Assembly: GCF_002931235.1 (NCBI RefSeq)
Contig: NZ_PSTT01000074.1
Coordinates: forward strand, 1 to 35,936
Length of the DNA: 35,936 bases
Direction of reading: 5' to 3'
DNA from: Subtercola sp. Z020
GTDB lineage: Bacteria > Actinomycetota > Actinomycetes > Actinomycetales > Microbacteriaceae
Shown: one piece after another, positions 7,671 through 35,936 of the stretch
Layout of the letters: each line of letters opens with the position of its first letter
Numbering within the stretch: the stretch's first letter is position 1
Notes under the pieces: model-generated
Database searches by the model: none
Told to the model about the DNA's origin: nothing
Seen by the model: the letters and a program-made list of their open reading frames with translations, nothing else
Translations under genes and position numbers: made by a program

Positions 7671-8837
7671 TCAACCCTCAGGCGGCTCGGCGCCACCGTT
7701 GGCCAGCGCCCTGCCCGCCGCCCACAGGAACGCCAGCGCGTTCTCGATGGCCGCATGCGAGCTGCCCGCCAGGTCGCTGAGCGACACCGACGCCGCAAAA
7801 TCCTCGGGGTCGGCGCCGATATTGCCCGCCACCAGCAGCGGGAACGTCTCGTGCTTCCGGGCCAGGGCCAGCACGAACGAGGGCACCTTGCCGGCGGCGG
7901 ACTGCGCATCGAACCGGCCTTCCCCCGTGATGACGACGTCGGCTTCGGCGATGTCGCGGTCGAGCCCCACCGCGTCGGCGACCGTCTCTGCACCGCTCCG
8001 GATGATCGCGCCCCAGAGCGCCAGGCCGAACCCCGTTCCCCCGGCCGCTCCCGCACCGGGCGCCTCGGGGTCGGCCAGCAGTGTGCCATCGGATCGCTCG
8101 CTGCGATGCGCGGCCGCGCCGACGACGCGCACCAGGCTCGCGAGCCCCCGATCGAGCTCCGCGACCTGGTGCATGTCGGCGCCCTTCTGCGGACCGAAGA
8201 CTGCGGCGGCGCCATTCGCGGCCAGAAGCGGGTTGGTGACATCGGTGACGATCTCGGCACCGCCCTCCGGCAGCGGGCGGAGGGCGCTGAAGTCGACGCT
8301 CACCAGCTGGGCGAGCCCGGCGCCGCCGTCGGCGATGGGCCGACCGTCTGCGTCGAGAAAGCGGCCACCGAGCGCACGGAGGGCGCCGACTCCGCCGTCG
8401 GTGGACGCACTGCCCCCGATCGCGAGCAACAGGCGTTCGACGCCGTGGTCGAGGGCGGCGGCGATGGCCTGCCCGAAGCCGGTGGTCTGGGCATCCATCG
8501 GCCGGAGTTCGGGCATCAGGGTGAGGCCGCTGGTGTTCGCCAGCTCGACGATGCCGGTAGTGCCGACGCTGTGCTCGCCCGGAACCAGCAGCCACTCGGC
8601 CTGCACAGGTTCACCGACAGGGCCGGTCACGGTGATCGGCATGCGCTTCGAGCCGGGAATGGCGAGGGCGAAGGCGTCGATGGTGCCCTCGCCGCCGTCG
8701 GCCATCGGCCGGAGAACGACGGTGTCGCCCGGGCGAGCTTCGCTCCACCCGCCACCGATGGCGGAGGCGACCTCAGAGGCGGTGGCGCTGCCTTTGAACG
8801 AGTCGGGGGCGACGACGACCTGCAACTTCGGGCTCAT
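7671..8837 (-). CDS. Glycerate kinase (GlxK/GarK family)
   Basis: It phosphorylates glycerate with ATP, feeding lower glycolysis from glyoxylate or serine-type substrates. The N-terminal signature VVVAPDSFKGSATASEVA, the GDTVVLRPMADGGEGT segment and the LAIGGSASTDGGVGALRALG segment are hallmarks of this family. The 388 residues from the ATG at 8837 match the usual length of about 380; a longer frame upstream adds only a non-conserved stub. Whether the product is 2- or 3-phosphoglycerate is not visible. The sulfurtransferase gene is downstream on the same strand and may share a transcript. Confidence 0.94.
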   Translation of the reverse strand: MSPKLQVVVAPDSFKGSATASEVASAIGGGWSEARPGDTVVLRPMADGGEGTIDAFALAIPGSKRMPITVTGPVGEPVQAEWLLVPGEHSVGTTGIVELANTSGLTLMPELRPMDAQTTGFGQAIAAALDHGVERLLLAIGGSASTDGGVGALRALGGRFLDADGRPIADGGAGLAQLVSVDFSALRPLPEGGAEIVTDVTNPLLAANGAAAVFGPQKGADMHQVAELDRGLASLVRVVGAAAHRSERSDGTLLADPEAPGAGAAGGTGFGLALWGAIIRSGAETVADAVGLDRDIAEADVVITGEGRFDAQSAAGKVPSFVLALARKHETFPLLVAGNIGADPEDFAASVSLSDLAGSSHAAIENALAFLWAAGRALANGGAEPPEG

Positions 8838-17656: not shown

Positions 17657-18460
17657 TCAGAGTCCGATCGACGAGAGCTCAGCTTCCTGAGCCTCGACCC
17701 GTTTCGCTGCCCGACGATCATGGAGTGTCGCGATGAGAGCCGCCGTGTAGAACAGAACGATCATAGGGATCGCGAGAAGGAACATCGATGCGACATCGGC
17801 AGCCGGAGTTGCAATCGCCGTGAAGAGCACGATGACCAGAATCGCAATGCGCCAGCTCTTCAAGATGGCCCTGCCCGAGATGACGCCTGCAAAGTTCAAC
17901 AGGACAAGCAGAACCGGGAGAACGAACGCAACACCAATCGCGACGACGAGTTTGAGCACGAAGTCGTAATAGGGGCGCGCGTCGATGATCGACGTCGAGC
18001 CTGACGGGGCAAACCCCGTCAGCAAACCGACCATATGCGGAAGCACATACCAGCCCGCCGTCGCACCTGCGAGGAAGAGCGGAACGGCCGTGAGCACGAA
18101 CCCGATGGCGTACTGCTTCTCTTTTCGCGTCAGCCCGGGTACCAGGAACGCCCAGAGCTGATAGAGCCAAACGGGTGAGGAGATCACTATTCCCACGGTG
18201 AAGGCGATCTGTAGTCGAAGGTCGAACGCACTCGACACATCCGTGAAGTTCAGCGACGCCGTACGGCCCTGGGAGTCGACAATGTCGCTCACAGGTTGAC
18301 GTAGAGCAGTGAGAACCGGGTCGGAGACGATCCACCCCACGACCGCACCGATCACTATTCCCAGAGCCGCCCGGAACAACCTGCGGCGGAACTCCCGGAG
18401 ATGCGAACCGAGAGTCATTCGACCCTCGCTGTTACGAGCCTTCTCCTTGACCGAGGTCAT
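17657..18460 (-). CDS. tatC: Sec-independent (Tat) translocase subunit TatC
   Basis: This 267-residue protein with six predicted membrane segments is the receptor for twin-arginine signals. Family marks are the N-terminal LGSHLREFRRRLFRAALGIVIG, the FTVGIVISSPVWLYQLWAFLVPGLTR region (first periplasmic loop and second segment) and an Arg/Lys-rich cytoplasmic tail. The ATG at 18460 lies 7 bases after the tatA stop, so tatA and tatC form one unit. The paf proteasome-accessory genes that flank tatA-tatC in many actinobacteria are missing here, suggesting a second, specialised Tat locus. Confidence 0.95.
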   Translation of the reverse strand: MTSVKEKARNSEGRMTLGSHLREFRRRLFRAALGIVIGAVVGWIVSDPVLTALRQPVSDIVDSQGRTASLNFTDVSSAFDLRLQIAFTVGIVISSPVWLYQLWAFLVPGLTRKEKQYAIGFVLTAVPLFLAGATAGWYVLPHMVGLLTGFAPSGSTSIIDARPYYDFVLKLVVAIGVAFVLPVLLVLLNFAGVISGRAILKSWRIAILVIVLFTAIATPAADVASMFLLAIPMIVLFYTAALIATLHDRRAAKRVEAQEAELSSIGL

Positions 18461-18467
18461 GGTGTGA

Positions 18468-18740
18468 TCAGCGGGTCGGAGTGGTCTCTGACGCCGGAAC
18501 ATCGGCGGGAACACTGGCCCCGGCGGGTGCGTGGGCTGCAGCAGCGGGAGACGCGGCGCCGGGAGCAGCAGATGAATCAGAAGCCGATTCATCGCTCTGC
18601 AATGTCTTCACTTCGCTCTTGAAGATGCGCATCGACTGACCGACGCTGCGTGCGAGACCGGGGAGCTTCGGTGCTCCGAAGAGCAGAAGCACGATGGCGA
18701 GGATGACAATCATGTGCCATCCCTGAAGATTTCCGAGCAT
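18468..18740 (-). CDS. tatA: Tat translocase pore subunit TatA
   Basis: The 90-residue protein has one N-terminal membrane helix (GWHMIVILAIVLLLFGAPKLP) with the conserved FG hinge and then an amphipathic helix (LARSVGQSMRIFKSEVK). This is the TatA layout, and the FGxxKLP form favours TatA over TatB. The tail is Ala/Pro/Ser rich and probably disordered. AAAGGA seven bases before the ATG at 18740 supports the start. It leads the tatA-tatC unit and is divergent from the ferritin-like gene. Confidence 0.93.
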   Translation of the reverse strand: MLGNLQGWHMIVILAIVLLLFGAPKLPGLARSVGQSMRIFKSEVKTLQSDESASDSSAAPGAASPAAAAHAPAGASVPADVPASETTPTR

Positions 18741-18853
18741 GTCGAGTCCTTTGCGAGAGTGAGTGGAGTACCACGTTCAGCGTGACGGACTGCGACCGAG
18801 CACAGGTGAACCATACACAGCTTCCAGATGAATGCCCACCCATCGTTTGTAAA

Positions 18854-18875
18854 GAGAAATTTCTCAGAAATTTCC
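18854..18875. promoter_or_regulatory. Tandem palindromic AGAAATTTC motifs (candidate operator)
   Basis: GAGAAATTTCTC (18854-18865) is a perfect 12-base palindrome, and AGAAATTTCC repeats directly after it with an 11-base period, one helical turn. The motifs lie in the 199-base divergent region between tatA and the ferritin-like gene, just upstream of a possible -10 element CATACT (18886-18891). Position and symmetry suggest a repressor site; the binding protein is unknown. Confidence 0.45.
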
Positions 18876-18939
18876 AATCCGATGACATACTGGCCCCGAG
18901 GGGCTACTGCATCACTTTTACCAAACGAAGGATGACCAA

Positions 18940-19038
18940 TTGTTTGAGAAGAAATTCATTGCGAACGCGATTGACCGCAGTTCGCAGTCCGAGCTGGACC
19001 GCCGACTTCTGCTGAAGGGCTTCGGACTCGCCGGGCTC
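18940..19038 (+). repeat. 99-bp direct repeat, copy 1
   Basis: The first 33 codons of the ferritin-like gene are identical, base for base, to 35838-35936. The match begins exactly at the TTG start codon. The upstream flanks are unrelated apart from the shared CGAAGGA ribosome-binding region. Confidence 0.97.
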
Positions 19039-19878
19039 GGCGTCGGGGCATCAGTGCTGATCCCGACCGTCGGCGCACAGGCCGCCGAAGACCCCAACGC
19101 TGCAGCAACAGACGCTGCCGTGCTGAACTTCGCCCTGAACCTCGAATACCTCGAAGCCGAGTTCTACCTCCGCGCCTCGACCGGTACCGGTCTGGTCCCC
19201 AACGACATCTCCGGAACCGGCACCGCCGGCGCTGTCACCGGCGGCCGCCAGGTGCAGTTCAAGGACTACAACATCCGCCAGTACGCCCGTGAGATCGCTC
19301 AGGACGAGAAGAACCACGTGCGGTTCCTCCGGGCAGCGCTCGGCAAGTCCGCCGTCGCCCGCCCCGCGATCAACCTCGACGCCGCGTTCACCGCAGCAGC
19401 AACCGCCGCCGGACTGATCAAGCCCGGCCAGACCTTCGACGCGTTCGGCAGCGACGAGAACTTCCTCCTCGCCTCGTACATCTTCGAAGACGTCGGAGTC
19501 ACCGCCTACAAGGGCGCCTCCCCCCTCATCACGAACAAGACGTACCTGGAAGCCGCCGCAGGCATCCTCGCGGTCGAGGCGTACCACGCCGGTATCATCC
19601 GCACGACCCTGTACGCCAAGGGTCTCGCCGATGCCGCCAACGCGATCTCCGACGCCCGCGACAGCCTCGACGGACCCACCGACGACGACCAGGGCATCAC
19701 CGACAAGGCCGCTGGTGGCGCCTTGAACCTCGTACCCACCGACGCGAACGGTATTGCCTTCAGCCGCTCACCCGGCCAGGTACTCAACGTCGTCTACCTC
19801 AACAACAAAGCCGTCACCAAGGGCGGGTTCTTCCCCTCCGGCGTCAACGGCGCCGTCAACACCAGCGCCGCCAACTAG
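18940..19878 (+). CDS. Exported ferritin-like domain protein with Tat-type signal
   Basis: The 312-residue protein begins with a twin-arginine signal: RRLLLKG at residues 21-27, then a hydrophobic stretch and a GAQAAE cleavage region near 46-50. The rest fits a four-helix ferritin-like domain with metal ligands in order: LEYLEAEFY (Glu69-Glu74), DEKNH (Glu123, His126), [11 protein letters not shown] (Glu183) and VEAYHAG (Glu213, His216). It probably binds a di-iron or di-manganese centre outside the membrane; its reaction is unknown. The TTG start is fixed by GAAGGA 7-10 bases upstream. tatA-tatC lie on one side and tatB on the other. Its first 99 bases recur exactly at 35838. Confidence 0.9.
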
Positions 19879-19917
19879 TTCCAGGGCTCGCTTCAACAGA
19901 ACAGCACCAATCCGTTT

Positions 19918-19958
19918 GGCGGGCCGTCTCGAATTCGCAGTGTTCGAGACGGCCCGCC
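19918..19958. terminator. Strong hairpin after ferritin-like gene
   Basis: A perfect 16-bp stem pairs GGCGGGCCGTCTCGAA (19918-19933) with TTCGAGACGGCCCGCC (19943-19958) around a 9-base loop. It lies 40 bases after the ferritin-like stop and about 56 bases before tatB. The following CGGTCTTTAC is only weakly T-rich. It could terminate the ferritin-like transcript or reduce read-through into tatB. Confidence 0.75.
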
Positions 19959-20014
19959 ATCGGTCTTTACAACCTCACGCACCACTCGCCCGACACGAGA
20001 AACACTGTGAATCC

Positions 20015-20350
20015 ATGTTCGGTCTGACTTTCGAGAAACTCATCCTCATCGGTGTCGTTGCGGCTTTCATCATTGGTCCGACGAAGCTGCCGCTCTATGC
20101 GGGGCGCCTCGGCCAGCTGGTTCGCCAACTGCGCGGATACACTGCCACGGCTAAAGAGCGCGTCAGGGAGGAAATGGGGCCTGACTTCGACGATGTCGAG
20201 TGGAAGAAACTCGACCCCCGCCAATACGACCCGCGACGCATCATTCGGGATGCACTGCTCGAGGACTCCCCGTCAGTAGCGGTAGCGCCCGCCGTCCCGG
20301 CACAACCCGTCTCGCTCGACAAAGCCGAGAAGCCGATCATGCCCGAATGA
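20015..20350 (+). CDS. tatB: Tat translocase subunit TatB
   Basis: This 111-residue protein has one N-terminal membrane helix (FEKLILIGVVAAFIIGPTKLP) with the GP hinge typical of TatB, then a long charged amphipathic helix (YAGRLGQLVRQLRGYTATAKERV). WKKLDPRQYDPRRIIRDALLED follows. TatB works with TatC to bind twin-arginine signals. It lies downstream of the ferritin-like gene on the same strand, while tatA and tatC are on the other side, so all three components flank one cargo gene. The ATG at 20015 is the only sensible start. Its end overlaps the end of the convergent polymerase gene by 14 bases. Confidence 0.9.
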   Translation: MFGLTFEKLILIGVVAAFIIGPTKLPLYAGRLGQLVRQLRGYTATAKERVREEMGPDFDDVEWKKLDPRQYDPRRIIRDALLEDSPSVAVAPAVPAQPVSLDKAEKPIMPE

Positions 20351-21821
20351 GCGCCGGCGGCTTCTTCCCGGGTGCCAGCGGCGCCCGCTCGGGTGTATAG
20401 GGCCGCGACACCACCAGGTACATCACGGTGGCGAGGAGAACTGTCGCGATCGTGAGAGACCCACCCTGGTAGGCGTCTCCACGAATGAGTGAGAACAGGA
20501 TGGGCGTCAGGCTCACACTGATCGTGAGACCCAGCACGCCGCGCTCCCGGAGCCGACTGCGCGTCAACGTCGACGCGAGCAGCGCCATCAGCGCCCCGGC
20601 CACGGCCACCCCGCCATGACCGAAGTTGCCGTAGGCCTCACCAACAGCAGAGAGGCTGGTCTCGACCTTGGTCGTACCGTAGAAGCGAGGAACGTACGTG
20701 CTGGTGAACCACGTGTTCCCACCGCCGCTCGGCTTGTTCGCCCAGACCGCCCGAGGTACGAACCAAGCCGGCACAGCCGCATAGGTCGCCCCTCGCTGGA
20801 ACTCGAAGTCGGGATCCTGGGCGACCACTTCGTTCAGTCGTATCAGACTGTCGAAGGGCCTGGTCTCGGCACCACTGGTGACTTGGTCGAGCAGCACACC
20901 GACCGGGTCGCTCGCGAGCTGGTTCAACGAGCGCCCCTGGTCGAAGTTCGCGTTCCGCACGACGATGCTGTACGAAATGGCGATGATGACGAGCGCCAAC
21001 CCGAGAGTCGCGATGGTTCGGAGCTTGAACGGTTTCGGACCGATCTGCTTCAGCAGCACGAGCGGCAGCACGACTCCGACGACGAGCGGGCCACGGCCGC
21101 CAGCCGCGACTCCGCAGATGGCAAGACTGATCAGCCCCACCAGGTTGACCCAGTTGTGCCAGACAGGCAGCCCCGCCTGCCGCCGGTGCACCACGTTTGC
21201 AACGAGTGCGATCTGCACGGGAACATAGCCCAGAACAAGGAACGACTTGCCCGAGAGGAAGTCGCTCCGGTTCGCCAGCCCAGCAAAGTATGCCCCAGGC
21301 CCGCCCGAACTGAGCACGAGATAGCCGAGCGCGCCGACGGCCACCGCAGAGGCGATGATCACGACGGCCTGAAGTGCGTTCGAGTCGACGGAGCGTCGGC
21401 GCCGGGGCATCCCGAAGTCTGCCAGCGCGTTGCGCTCCCGGTTCACGGTGATGAAGTAGTAGACCAGGAAGAACGCGCAGAAGAAGATGAGGCACTCGAC
21501 GAGCGCCGCACTGCCCGCAAGAATCAGGGTCGGAGTGAAGTCGCGGGAATCGGCTATGGCGCCCGGACTGGTGACCCGGTTCCACATGATGGTGAGGGGG
21601 CGGAGCACGAACAGCAGCAGCCCGGTGATCGCAACGACACCAGCCGGTGTCAGCGGGTCACGGAAGACGACCAGTTCGCGTGTCAGAGCTGCGAGAAGCA
21701 CGACCGCGAGGATCGCGATCATCGTCGGGTACGAAACGGCCTGGTCGAGGAGGGAGACTGCCGCCAGGGAGGCGAGTATTGCCACGACAGCGCCCGCGGC
21801 GAAGATGATCACCGATTTCAT
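20337..21821 (-). CDS. Putative polysaccharide polymerase (Wzy/O-antigen ligase-like membrane protein)
   Basis: This 494-residue, very hydrophobic protein has about ten or more predicted membrane segments and a long extracellular loop (about residues 310-400) with RPFDSLIRLNEVVAQDPDFEFQRGATY. The pattern resembles oligosaccharide repeat-unit polymerases. A GGRGPLVVGVVLPLVLL segment with conserved Arg is typical. It would join repeat units outside the membrane. It is the last gene of the exopolysaccharide operon; its ATG overlaps the pyruvyltransferase stop as ATGA. Sequence conservation in this family is low, so the call rests on topology and context. Confidence 0.75.
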   Translation of the reverse strand: MKSVIIFAAGAVVAILASLAAVSLLDQAVSYPTMIAILAVVLLAALTRELVVFRDPLTPAGVVAITGLLLFVLRPLTIMWNRVTSPGAIADSRDFTPTLILAGSAALVECLIFFCAFFLVYYFITVNRERNALADFGMPRRRRSVDSNALQAVVIIASAVAVGALGYLVLSSGGPGAYFAGLANRSDFLSGKSFLVLGYVPVQIALVANVVHRRQAGLPVWHNWVNLVGLISLAICGVAAGGRGPLVVGVVLPLVLLKQIGPKPFKLRTIATLGLALVIIAISYSIVVRNANFDQGRSLNQLASDPVGVLLDQVTSGAETRPFDSLIRLNEVVAQDPDFEFQRGATYAAVPAWFVPRAVWANKPSGGGNTWFTSTYVPRFYGTTKVETSLSAVGEAYGNFGHGGVAVAGALMALLASTLTRSRLRERGVLGLTISVSLTPILFSLIRGDAYQGGSLTIATVLLATVMYLVVSRPYTPERAPLAPGKKPPALIRA

Positions 21822-22840
21822 CGCGCTCCTCCCAGATACGTCATCAGGCCCGACTTCGCCGCCTCCAGAGCGGCAACGGCGGCCTCGACAGCAGCGGTGT
21901 CGACCCGCCCGGTTCGTTCTGTCGCCTCTCCGATGGTAGCTGCCGTCTCGACGTGGAAGTCCGAAGCGAAGGCATCCACCTTCGCGAAGCCCGAGATGGC
22001 CACCACGGGAACCGCCGAGAGAACACCCATGTACAGGGCGTGCATCCGTGAAGCTATGACGACATCTGCCTGCGAGATCGTCGAGCGCACCGTTTGCCAC
22101 GAGTGACCCTCGTCGTCGGCCCCGAGCAGGGCGGAAACAGGTGCGCTCAGGCTCCGGCCATCCCAATCCTCGCCCTGATCCATCGAAACGAACTGCACGG
22201 CGCCCCACCGCGTGCGAAGCGCACCGATCTGCTCAATCGTGAGGGATGCCGCCTCGCGGCGGTTCAAGGCGAGAAGGGCGCCCGTCCCCGGCCTCTCGAG
22301 CGCGGTGCCGGGTTCGCGGGGGCTGTAGTCGAAGAGACTGACGTCTCCGCTGACTTCCGGATGCCGCGACATCAGCGCTGCGGCACGCGCCTGTGAGGCG
22401 GAATCCCGCACCCACACGCGCGCCAGTCGAAGGGTGAGGGAGATGGCCGAGCGGGCTCTTCTCCGACGAACCGGATCGACGCCCACGCCGAAGACGACGA
22501 ACTTCTTGCCGAGCGCTCGTGCGAGTACCGCGGCCGTCAGGCAGAGCCGCGGCAGCCCGGCGAAAGGCCGATCGGGCTGGTCGTCCTGAAGCAGCGTTCC
22601 ACCGCCCACGAGAACGGCGTCCGCCCCGCGGATCACTCCGGCGAGCCCCCTGATGCCGCCCACTCGCATTCGAGTCTCGGTCGAACCGACGCGATCGGCC
22701 ACACCGAAGTCGGCGATGACGACCTCATAGCCCGACCGGCGGAGTGACGCCGAGAGAGCGTCGGTCAGGAATGCATCGCCGATGTTCTGCGGATGCCCTG
22801 ACGACGTGGTGCGGTCGGCGGAGATGATCAGGATTTTCAC
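21818..22840 (-). CDS. Polysaccharide pyruvyl transferase family protein
   Basis: The 340-residue protein has NIGDAFLTDALSASLRRSG at the start, VLVGGGTLLQDDQPDRPF, KKFVVFGVGVDPVRRRRAR and a C-terminal ISQADVVIASRMHALYMGVLSAVPVVAI. These are the hallmarks of the CsaB/WcaK family, which transfers pyruvyl from phosphoenolpyruvate onto sugars as a ketal. It would give the polymer a negative charge. The GTG at 22840 overlaps the flippase stop as GTGA. The sugar acceptor is not known. Confidence 0.88.
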   Translation of the reverse strand: MKILIISADRTTSSGHPQNIGDAFLTDALSASLRRSGYEVVIADFGVADRVGSTETRMRVGGIRGLAGVIRGADAVLVGGGTLLQDDQPDRPFAGLPRLCLTAAVLARALGKKFVVFGVGVDPVRRRRARSAISLTLRLARVWVRDSASQARAAALMSRHPEVSGDVSLFDYSPREPGTALERPGTGALLALNRREAASLTIEQIGALRTRWGAVQFVSMDQGEDWDGRSLSAPVSALLGADDEGHSWQTVRSTISQADVVIASRMHALYMGVLSAVPVVAISGFAKVDAFASDFHVETAATIGEATERTGRVDTAAVEAAVAALEAAKSGLMTYLGGAR

Positions 22841-34143: not shown

Positions 34144-35706
34144 ATGTCACGACGATCCGCAGGAGACAACACCCCCCAGGAGCCGCCCGCGCCGGAAGGG
34201 CCGCCCCTCTTCGACCGGCGTCTCATCATCGCCGGAACGGTTGCCGCCTCCATCGCCGGAGCCCGCCTCTCTCTCCGCGCCGACGACAGCGTCATCTCGC
34301 ATCCCGAGCAGAGTGCGGCAGCTGCGCCGGCTGTACCACTCACGGTCGCCGCCGAGCCTTCAGCGCAGCCCGGCACTCTTCCGCCCGCGACGCCGGCAGA
34401 CGTACTGGCAATCACCCCGTACGATTTCGGTTTCGTCGATGGAGCACCAGATGCGACCGCGTCCATCCAGGCGATGTTCGACACCCTTGTTCTGAACCCC
34501 GGAGCTCGCGCCATTCTCCCGGGCGGCACGATCAACGTCACGAATCTTCGCATCGACTACGCCGGAGTCCAGGCACAACCTTCCTCGGGTGCGCCGTACG
34601 GATACCCGGGACCGCACATCGAAGGTAGCTCGAAGCGTGGCACGATCATCCGGCAACTCGAAGGGTCCACAGGCGACGTTCTCACCATTCAAGGCAAGGT
34701 GGGTGTCGCCGCCGGCCCTGCGAACAACAACAAGATCTCCGGGCTCTCGCTGTCTAATCTGCAGATCCAGGGCGCAGATACCGGCGGCCACGGACTCTAT
34801 ATCCGGTCGGTGGTCGACTCGACATTCGATGAACTCACCATCACCAACACGCAGTCGGGCGTCTATCTCGCCCGCGAGGCCTTTCTCTCGGGCGTCTACG
34901 ACGAGTATTCGTACAACAACCGCTTCACCCACCTGAAGGTGTTGACCAACAGGGCCTGGGGAATCGAATGTTCGGGAACCAACGCCATCGCTGCTTCTTT
35001 CTACGACTGCGAAGCGACCGGCAACATCGCCGGCGGCTACCGGCTTGCGCCGTCGGGCATGATCCTGGTGCACTGCCTCGCCGTTGGCAACGGCGTGAAG
35101 AACGCCGATGGCCGAGGCCTCTGGTCGGTCACCAACTCGAACAACTTCTCGACGAACAACGGTCTCACACTCGTGGGCTGCCGCTTCGAAGGCAACTCGG
35201 CGCCGGGGGGCTACGAGATCGAGATCGAATCGGGATATGGCCACGTCATCTCGGCCCCGCAGTTCTTTGCGACAACAGGGGCCACGCCGCTCGGCATCGG
35301 GCTCCGTCAGGTCGATGATTCGAAGAAGGTGCGCAACCTCATCGTCACAGGAGGCTACTTCGGGGGAGATCGATCCACTTCCTCGCAACGCCTCGCCATT
35401 CTCGGCGGCAACGCGATGAACACCCTGTTCGACAACCTCGGGATCGATCCGCAGCAGTGGGCTGGCGGCACCCGCGTCAGTGAACTCATCGATGACGAGT
35501 CGATCGCACTTTCTGTCAACGACCCCAGCCGCTTCCGCATCGACTCCAGCGGGTACATCGCTCTCGAGGCCGTCTCGGGCGGTCTTCCCACACCCTCGGC
35601 CTCCGGTCAGGCAAACCTCGCCGTTGTCACGGATGCCAGTGGCAGGCAGTCGCTCGTGGTTCAATTCGCCGGAGGTGATGCTCAGGTGATCGCGCGTCAG
35701 CCGTGA
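34144..35706 (+). CDS. Exported right-handed beta-helix (pectate-lyase-like fold) protein
   Basis: The 520-residue protein has an N-terminal signal or anchor: RR at 25-26 in LFDRRLIIAGTVAAS, then a hydrophobic stretch and an Ala/Pro-rich linker. The rest is repeats typical of parallel beta-helices, with phrases such as SGLSLSNLQIQGADTGGHGLYIRSVVDSTFDELTITNTQSG. PDATASIQAMFD near 100 is a pattern seen in pectate-lyase-like proteins. Such proteins often lyse, epimerise or bind polysaccharide. No catalytic residues can be named. It follows the acyltransferase gene by 24 bases, so they are probably co-transcribed. Confidence 0.85.
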   Translation: MSRRSAGDNTPQEPPAPEGPPLFDRRLIIAGTVAASIAGARLSLRADDSVISHPEQSAAAAPAVPLTVAAEPSAQPGTLPPATPADVLAITPYDFGFVDGAPDATASIQAMFDTLVLNPGARAILPGGTINVTNLRIDYAGVQAQPSSGAPYGYPGPHIEGSSKRGTIIRQLEGSTGDVLTIQGKVGVAAGPANNNKISGLSLSNLQIQGADTGGHGLYIRSVVDSTFDELTITNTQSGVYLAREAFLSGVYDEYSYNNRFTHLKVLTNRAWGIECSGTNAIAASFYDCEATGNIAGGYRLAPSGMILVHCLAVGNGVKNADGRGLWSVTNSNNFSTNNGLTLVGCRFEGNSAPGGYEIEIESGYGHVISAPQFFATTGATPLGIGLRQVDDSKKVRNLIVTGGYFGGDRSTSSQRLAILGGNAMNTLFDNLGIDPQQWAGGTRVSELIDDESIALSVNDPSRFRIDSSGYIALEAVSGGLPTPSASGQANLAVVTDASGRQSLVVQFAGGDAQVIARQP

Positions 35707-35837: not shown

Positions 35838-35936
35838 TTGTTTGAGAAGAAATTCATTGCGAACGCGATTGACCGCAGTTCGCAGTCCGAGCTGGACCGC
35901 CGACTTCTGCTGAAGGGCTTCGGACTCGCCGGGCTC
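35838..35936 (+). CDS. Start of a second ferritin-like Tat-signal protein (3' end outside window)
   Basis: The 33 visible codons encode the same N-terminus as the gene at 18940, including the RRLLLKG twin-arginine motif, and are identical in every base. The TTG start is supported by GAAGGA upstream, spaced as in the first copy. The gene runs out of the window, so it is not known whether the rest is a full duplicate, a diverged paralogue or a fragment. It lies downstream of the beta-helix gene with a 131-base gap. Confidence 0.85.
   Translation, partial: MFEKKFIANAIDRSSQSELDRRLLLKGFGLAGL
35838..35936 (+). repeat. 99-bp direct repeat, copy 2
   Basis: Identical to 18940-19038 over all 99 visible bases, and the match may continue past the window. 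Starts of the two copies are 16898 bases apart in direct orientation, with the polysaccharide genes between them. Confidence 0.97.

Follow-up and report, generated by a model that had tools for sequence, protein, structure and literature searches.

A Tat gene set encloses a ferritin-like gene

The window analysed here is an entire contig (C88; 35,936 bases) of Subtercola sp. Z020, whose genome assembly comprises 3.53 Mb and is 98.7% complete. Between positions 17657 and 20350, genes for all three components of the twin-arginine translocation (Tat) system surround a gene for a ferritin-like protein with a Tat signal. The original prediction, made from the letters of the contig, had placed tatC and tatA on one strand and tatB on the other, around the signal-bearing gene, and profile matches bear this out. 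The features are as follows.

17657..18460, minus strand: tatC, accessory copy, 267 amino acids (PF00902 profile positions 1-208 of 208, E 1.8e-60)
18468..18740, minus strand: tatA, accessory copy, 90 amino acids, upstream of tatC (PF02416, E 3.9e-18; NF001854 TatA above cut-off)
18940..19878, plus strand: Ferritin_2 (PF13668) gene, 312 amino acids, TTG start, twin-arginine signal peptide (PF13668, E 2.8e-45)
19000..19005, plus strand: twin-arginine codons R21 and R22 of the ferritin gene, from the translation
19917..19959, plus strand: strong hairpin in the ferritin-tatB gap, no clear T run, from RNA folding
20015..20350, plus strand: tatB, accessory copy, 111 amino acids (PF02416, 21.1 bits; NF002377, 69 bits)
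35838..35936, plus strand: second ferritin copy, of which the contig end leaves the first 33 codons (99 bases identical to copy 1)

TatC is full length, its match spanning the whole PF00902 profile. Its start had been put at 18592, where the longest open reading frame begins, but the ATG at 18460, 7 bases past the stop codon of tatA, is likelier. At the position of the TTG start of the ferritin gene, the third ferritin copy of Subtercola boreus P27979 has Met encoded by ATG. TatB barely exceeds the PF02416 cut-off of 21 bits and falls below the NCBIfam TatB cut-offs, among them that of 96 bits for the actinobacterial model NF002377; aligned with 12 other TatB proteins, it shows 48-61% identity. 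With codon usage ranked among 94 genes against a reference set of two genes only, the ferritin gene stands 18th and tatC 93rd.

The window Tat set is an accessory copy

Four tatC genes are present in this genome, on contigs C76, C93 and C145 and in the window, so the window is not the only Tat locus. The copy on C76 lies in an ordinary housekeeping locus, pafB-pafC-tatA-tatC-helicase. Three tatB genes, in the window and on C145 and C135, were found with a TatB profile built from rows that include the window and C145 proteins. A sister genome with a single tatC has its tatB in a locus collinear with that of C135 over ~2.1 kb (79%), and we therefore take C135 tatB to be the housekeeping copy. 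The window tatB was considered for this role and rejected, since C135 holds the syntenic gene. The layout that had been described as usual for Actinobacteria, paf-linked tatA-tatC with tatB elsewhere, thus also exists in this genome, and because the four tatC and three tatB genes include an ordinary locus, the window set is accessory.

The window TatC shares 72% amino acid identity with the housekeeping TatC of its own genome, and the C93 TatC shares 93%. On C93, tatA and tatC follow the 3′ fragment of another ferritin copy. On C145 (locus L007, 8232-10795), tatA, tatC and tatB come after a twin-arginine gene of lipoprotein type whose product has a Dioxygenase_C domain.

The exported protein is a predicted di-metal four-helix bundle

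The cargo matches PF13668 with 154.3 bits against a cut-off of 24.7, and this is its sole Pfam match. Its signal carries the motif DRRLLLKG, as first noted, and DRR is found in all 80 ferritin relatives examined. The ferritin-like ligand pattern also holds: E69, E72, E123xxH126, E183 and E213xxH216 are invariant across 34 aligned sequences. Helices are predicted at residues 58-81, 110-137, 172-196 and 200-226, with a confident four-helix core and a mean predicted local distance difference test score of 68.9 overall. A Foldseek search with this model gave no match below E 0.001; entries 8kce and 8w9k of RvY_06210 ranked 6 and 9, and cage ferritins and bacterioferritins matched only weakly. A sequence search against solved structures returned nothing relevant. 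Together, the ligands and the model predict a di-metal four-helix bundle whose ligands follow the order E, ExxH, E, E/D.

The function of the exported protein had been called unknown, which is too strong given its family. The cargo is 46% identical to the PF13668-type protein of Deinococcus radiodurans plasmid pMP1, which we take to be DRB0118, and the aligned ligand residues are kept. According to the available text of PMC11616004, DRB0118 and the tardigrade protein RvFeMP-1 were assayed as phosphatases, DRB0118 is important for desiccation survival, and the PF13668 family is linked to stress. In the alignment the cargo has Gly at the position of RvFeMP-1 Asp135. The cargo likely acts in stress protection at the cell surface as a di-metal enzyme of the metabolite-phosphatase type.

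The n-region of the ferritin signal (MFxKxFIxxAIxRSAENxxDRR in many of the 80 loci) is unusually conserved for a signal peptide, whether or not tat genes lie nearby.

An Nramp-type gene lies near the ferritin gene in 10 of the 80 loci, from five genera (L022, L028, L032, L033, L035, L038, L074, L078, L080 and L087); its identity was tested with PF01566 on one Nocardioides member. It is the next gene after ferritin in Friedmanniella, Actinosynnema, Actinoplanes and Kineosporia, while in Nocardioides the tat genes stand between ferritin and Nramp in five loci and Nramp lies on the other side in one. To judge by gene order in these other genera, the linkage would tie the ferritin family to divalent metal supply. 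Metal choice can reportedly depend on folding before Tat export, as in work on a cyanobacterial manganese protein.

Ferritin and tatC genes are linked in six genera

At least 556 relatives of the ferritin gene were found, and the best 80 loci were examined, with linkage defined as tatC within 7 kb. Twenty-two loci from six genera, in ~0.99 Mb of flanking DNA, are linked: 11 of 12 in Cryobacterium, 5 of 6 in Nocardioides, 3 of 7 in Pseudonocardia, 1 of 6 in Subtercola, 1 of 3 in Arthrobacter and 1 of 2 in Naasia. None is linked under the other 23 labels among these 80. By number of loci, TatC is the commonest neighbour cluster of ferritin; two large generic clusters (ligase-like and ABC-ATPase-like) also occur in six genera, with six loci each. 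Because 22 of 80 loci have tatC so close by, chance is a poor explanation of the linkage, although this is a raw count with no random-gene control.

Whole-genome tatC counts covered 40 of the 80 loci. The genomes of all 22 linked loci have two or three tatC genes, and those of 16 of the 18 unlinked loci have one. The exceptions, Herbiconiux and Rhodococcus, have two, and their extra tatC genes adjoin other genes with twin-arginine (RR) signals. One unlinked locus, L068, had been a candidate for linkage through a weak TatA-like match (34%, 8033-8362), and was dropped because it holds no tatC and its genome has one.

The arrangement recurs outside the window. The same four genes occur in S. boreus P27979, and linkage in other gene orders, which vary between genera, is found in five more named genera and in a further genus of the family, that of genome G014. 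As for the expected co-conservation across Microbacteriaceae, the picture is mixed: PF13668 occurs in 18 of 149 genomes of a family sample, with linkage to tatC in four (G000, G014, G072 and G130) and a single tatC, unlinked, in each of the other 14. Several family-sample places were left out of the locus set, namely G050:C31, G091:C1:1367733 and G113:C230 (full or large matches), G113:C76 (a fragment), and G050:C94 and G091:C1:2008749 (below cut-off).

The linked TatC proteins have several origins

A TatC tree was built from 115 matches, reduced to 93 rows by dropping short and identical sequences. Twenty-four rows are ferritin-linked, ten of them Cryobacterium, with the C93 row labelled by hand. 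Well-supported branches force at least 8 changes of the linked label, with gains and losses indistinguishable. A single clade of ferritin-linked TatCs is rejected by the approximately unbiased (AU) test (p-AU 0.00065), and with it one inherited ferritin-Tat cassette.

In the tree, the C93 TatC falls among the housekeeping TatCs of Subtercola, and the TatC of the window lies next to this group together with its ortholog from S. boreus. The rows from Cryobacterium and Arthrobacter, and two from Pseudonocardia, cluster with paf- or helicase-linked TatC of the same genus; the third from Pseudonocardia joins further TatCs of that genus, including an accessory one. The linked Nocardioides rows group with the other TatCs of the same genomes, be they housekeeping or not. 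Placement is poor for the Naasia and G014 rows, and the program flagged long branches meeting in the tree. Since the linked TatCs form no single clade and mostly lie with TatCs of their own genus, duplicated Tat genes seem to have been captured repeatedly beside the ferritin gene.

The locus in S. boreus and further ferritin copies

Contigs of S. boreus P27979 are the closest named matches to the window contig. The four-gene locus is kept there, split over two contigs: tatC-tatA-ferritin at a contig end (L011) and a contig-start fragment with tatB (L194), the latter aligning with window positions 19522-21835 at 79%. The window TatC and that of S. boreus copy 1 share 85% amino acid identity. 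With a nonsynonymous divergence (dN) of 0.103 and a synonymous divergence (dS) of 1.36, the ratio is ~0.08 (NG86; dS near saturation), and tatC is under purifying selection.

A Pfam search had indicated a single ferritin gene in this genome. This was rejected, as parts of at least two more copies lie at contig ends: 5′ ends at the end of C88 (35838-35936) and at C76:167803-167955, and 3′ ends at C34:1-135 and C93:1-135. Synteny with S. boreus, where a full ferritin gene stands, places the C88 end before C34. The pairing of C76 with C93, reached by elimination, is weak; a 191-base match of 75% lies about half within the gene. The shared middle of the copies seems to have collapsed in assembly. 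Among the copies of this genome, the first 99 bases are identical in three and the last 135 bases are 98.5-99.3% identical, while identity to the S. boreus copies is 84-91%. This greater closeness to each other suggests gene conversion, as far as the assembled ends of copies 2 and 3 tell, their middle being unassembled.

The hairpin 3′ of the window ferritin gene is stable, with the segment 19905-19975 folding at -42.2 kcal/mol (z -7.15) and none of 200 shuffles equally low. Hairpins also follow other ferritin copies, with z -5.4 on C34 and weaker values of -2.8 on C93 and -2.5 in S. boreus. A terminator scan gave no plus-strand match and left the window hairpin uncalled, and a promoter scan found nothing. 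The hairpin may be a partial terminator that limits read-through into tatB, or may protect the 3′ end of the mRNA.

Other genes recur beside the ferritin copies. Directly upstream of copy 2, positions 34144-35706 encode a 520-amino-acid protein whose N terminus contains RR and which matches no Pfam family; it is also present in S. boreus (L009). Genes for a DUF4397 protein and a sortase lie directly upstream of copy 3 (L186, 9983-11604; L086, 6148-6807), and a neighbour cluster with a sortase as its tested member is near ferritin in six loci from four genera.

Accessory tatC genes often adjoin a gene with a twin-arginine signal

From the family sample we took 19 accessory tatC loci without regard to ferritin, setting aside the ferritin-linked G014 locus, and compared them with 22 housekeeping loci (17 from the same sample) and with 349 genes farther away as background. 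A gene with an RR signal stands no more than two genes from tatC in 15 of 19 accessory loci (one, L143, looks spurious) and 1 of 22 housekeeping loci; the background rate is 11 of 349. A stricter first rule gave 10 of 19, 1 of 22 and 10 of 349. That rule missed lipoprotein signals and was relaxed after the misses were seen, which is a weakness of the count of 15. With L143 removed, 14 of 19 still differs from the housekeeping set (Fisher p 4e-6), as does 12 of 17 (p 1.7e-5) once one each of the near-duplicates L131/L132 and L150/L152 is also left out. One accessory locus, L158, is cut by a contig end.

A Dioxygenase_C match above cut-off is present in all ten lipoprotein-type cargos, two of whose loci are outside the 19 (C145 and Rhodococcus). 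The ten TatCs of these cassettes form one tree group, so that this cassette, unlike the ferritin one, is inherited. Among the other accessory cargos are a GH32 enzyme and a protein of short-chain dehydrogenase type; a further one has an Ig-like match that stays below cut-off.

Three loci (L121, L125 and L160) have accessory tatAC beside proteins of 151-207 amino acids with an RR..AWxVPVIAVA-type signal; one of these proteins has an Ig-like match below cut-off. In L136, accessory tatC and tatB are ~4.3 kb apart, a neighbour resembles a glycosyltransferase, and no RR-signal gene lies within two genes.

Proposed capture of an accessory Tat set beside its cargo

We propose, with a probability of roughly 0.7, that an accessory TatABC set was captured beside a secreted, DRB0118-like ferritin-like protein and adds export capacity. 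The cargo would fold in the cytoplasm, where its di-metal centre would be loaded, and would leave folded through Tat, guided by the DRR signal. The additional tat genes (tatA, tatC and tatB), which stem from housekeeping-type ones, would raise or time this export, and the housekeeping Tat would presumably be able to export the cargo as well. The linked set likely serves mainly the ferritin cargo. Because the signals of linked and unlinked copies are nearly equal, its benefit is more probably one of capacity or co-expression than of a private signal code.

Several observations weigh against this proposal. In the window, tatC-tatA lie on the strand opposite to ferritin. No tatC was found in the examined flank of 58 of the 80 ferritin loci, and although 21 loci are shorter than 14 kb, the 59 longer ones still comprise 41 unlinked against 18 linked. 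The 14 unlinked genomes of the family sample include three sister Subtercola genomes. In S. boreus, ferritin copies 2 and 3 carry a signal almost identical to that of copy 1, and no tat genes were found in the examined flank of either, copy 3 being on a 6.1 kb contig. In G089, a second tatB without tatC follows the ferritin gene by ~0.4 kb (C3:640611-641799) and the one tatC is elsewhere in the genome; this is possibly a remnant or a tatB-only linkage.

A strictly dedicated translocase, in which the accessory TatBC reads the ferritin signal only and the housekeeping Tat cannot export the cargo, would have a precedent in Bacillus subtilis, where the dependence of YwbN on TatAyCy is strict at low salt (PMC3068169), and the conserved n-region of the ferritin signal would fit it. 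We nonetheless consider it rather improbable, since linked and unlinked S. boreus ferritins differ at a single residue in the first 58, a single tatC is present in 14 of the 18 family-sample genomes with ferritin, and the linked TatCs share no single clade. The first two of these points leave exclusivity of the window Tat for ferritin unsupported at the level of sequence. Of the dedicated export system first suggested, the specialised set is therefore well supported, because this is not the only Tat locus and the arrangement recurs elsewhere, whereas exclusivity of the TatAyCy-YwbN kind is not.

The set might instead be a general Tat for many substrates under cold, drying or oxidative stress, with ferritin only one of them. 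The reported stress link of the PF13668 family (PMC11616004) agrees with this, and tat genes divergent from the cargo do not require sole service to it. This reading is conceivable but doubtful, given that the same cargo family is linked again in six genera with differing gene order and that other accessory cassettes adjoin other cargo genes. That the set is a mere bystander next to an unrelated gene would suit the 58 loci without tatC, yet the 22 linked loci (again with no random-gene control), the several TatC origins and the purifying selection on tatC leave this next to no probability.

Since the pairing of ferritin and captured Tat genes seems to have arisen on several occasions among related bacteria, we think that it probably matters. 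It amounts to a natural repeat experiment, with one cargo family and translocases of separate origin, and lets one test whether it is signal specificity or capacity that drives the evolution of Tat paralogs. Partners in export and in metal transport are thereby assigned to a family of secreted metalloproteins that may be related to desiccation. More broadly, the balance tips slightly towards accessory Tat systems of Actinobacteria being as a rule one-cargo machines, with DRB0118-like ferritins having repeatedly pulled duplicated Tat alongside; if so, evolution would have met a bottleneck in Tat capacity for a single folded metalloprotein time and again. The gene adjoining an accessory tatC is suggested as a good guess for a Tat cargo in these bacteria.

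Comparison with known systems

Among the titles and starts of abstracts that searches of the open-access literature brought up, subscription journals aside, none describes a link between ferritin and Tat genes. None is mentioned in the available part of PMC9425974, and the word ferritin is not found in that of PMC3827258, which reports two tatC genes in five actinobacterial species and proposes specialised secretion for extra Tat systems.

The cargo shares its family and ligands with the desiccation-related PF13668 proteins DRB0118, RvFeMP-1, PCC13-62 and Rds1. No annotated tat gene lies within 6 kb of the D. radiodurans relative, in a gene table that is incomplete, nor in the four regions (D. 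radiodurans, Thermus thermophilus, Sphingomonas and an Arthrobacter plasmid) taken from the 132 records of a plasmid search, which showed relatives in other phyla. Actinobacterial relatives have a long conserved n-region before DRR, and the Thermus relative also has a twin arginine.

The window set has the same three components as the housekeeping actinobacterial Tat, but differs in forming a separate locus beside its cargo with a local tatB. In Listeria monocytogenes, tatAC lie near fepCAB, close to the gene for FepB, a Tat cargo related to iron (PMC4481299). That study reports co-regulation by Fur and describes what mutating tatC does; the cargo family differs from that of the window, and the available text treats the Listeria ferritin-like protein separately from tatAC-fepCAB.

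A further likeness is to TatAyCy-YwbN/EfeB and TatAdCd-PhoD of B. subtilis, also a Gram-positive bacterium in which the gene of a Tat cargo has an extra Tat copy next to it or not far off; phoD and ywbN are within or close to the tatC loci (PMC3827258), and a role in iron acquisition is described for YwbN (PMC3068169). This cargo, a Dyp-type peroxidase, is exported by a minimal translocase of TatAy and TatCy, whereas the window has TatB and a PF13668 cargo. Strict dependence is a B. subtilis result; the ferritin-linked TatC has several origins. In the window, as in TatAyCy-YwbN, a second Tat set is physically linked to a Tat-type cargo gene.

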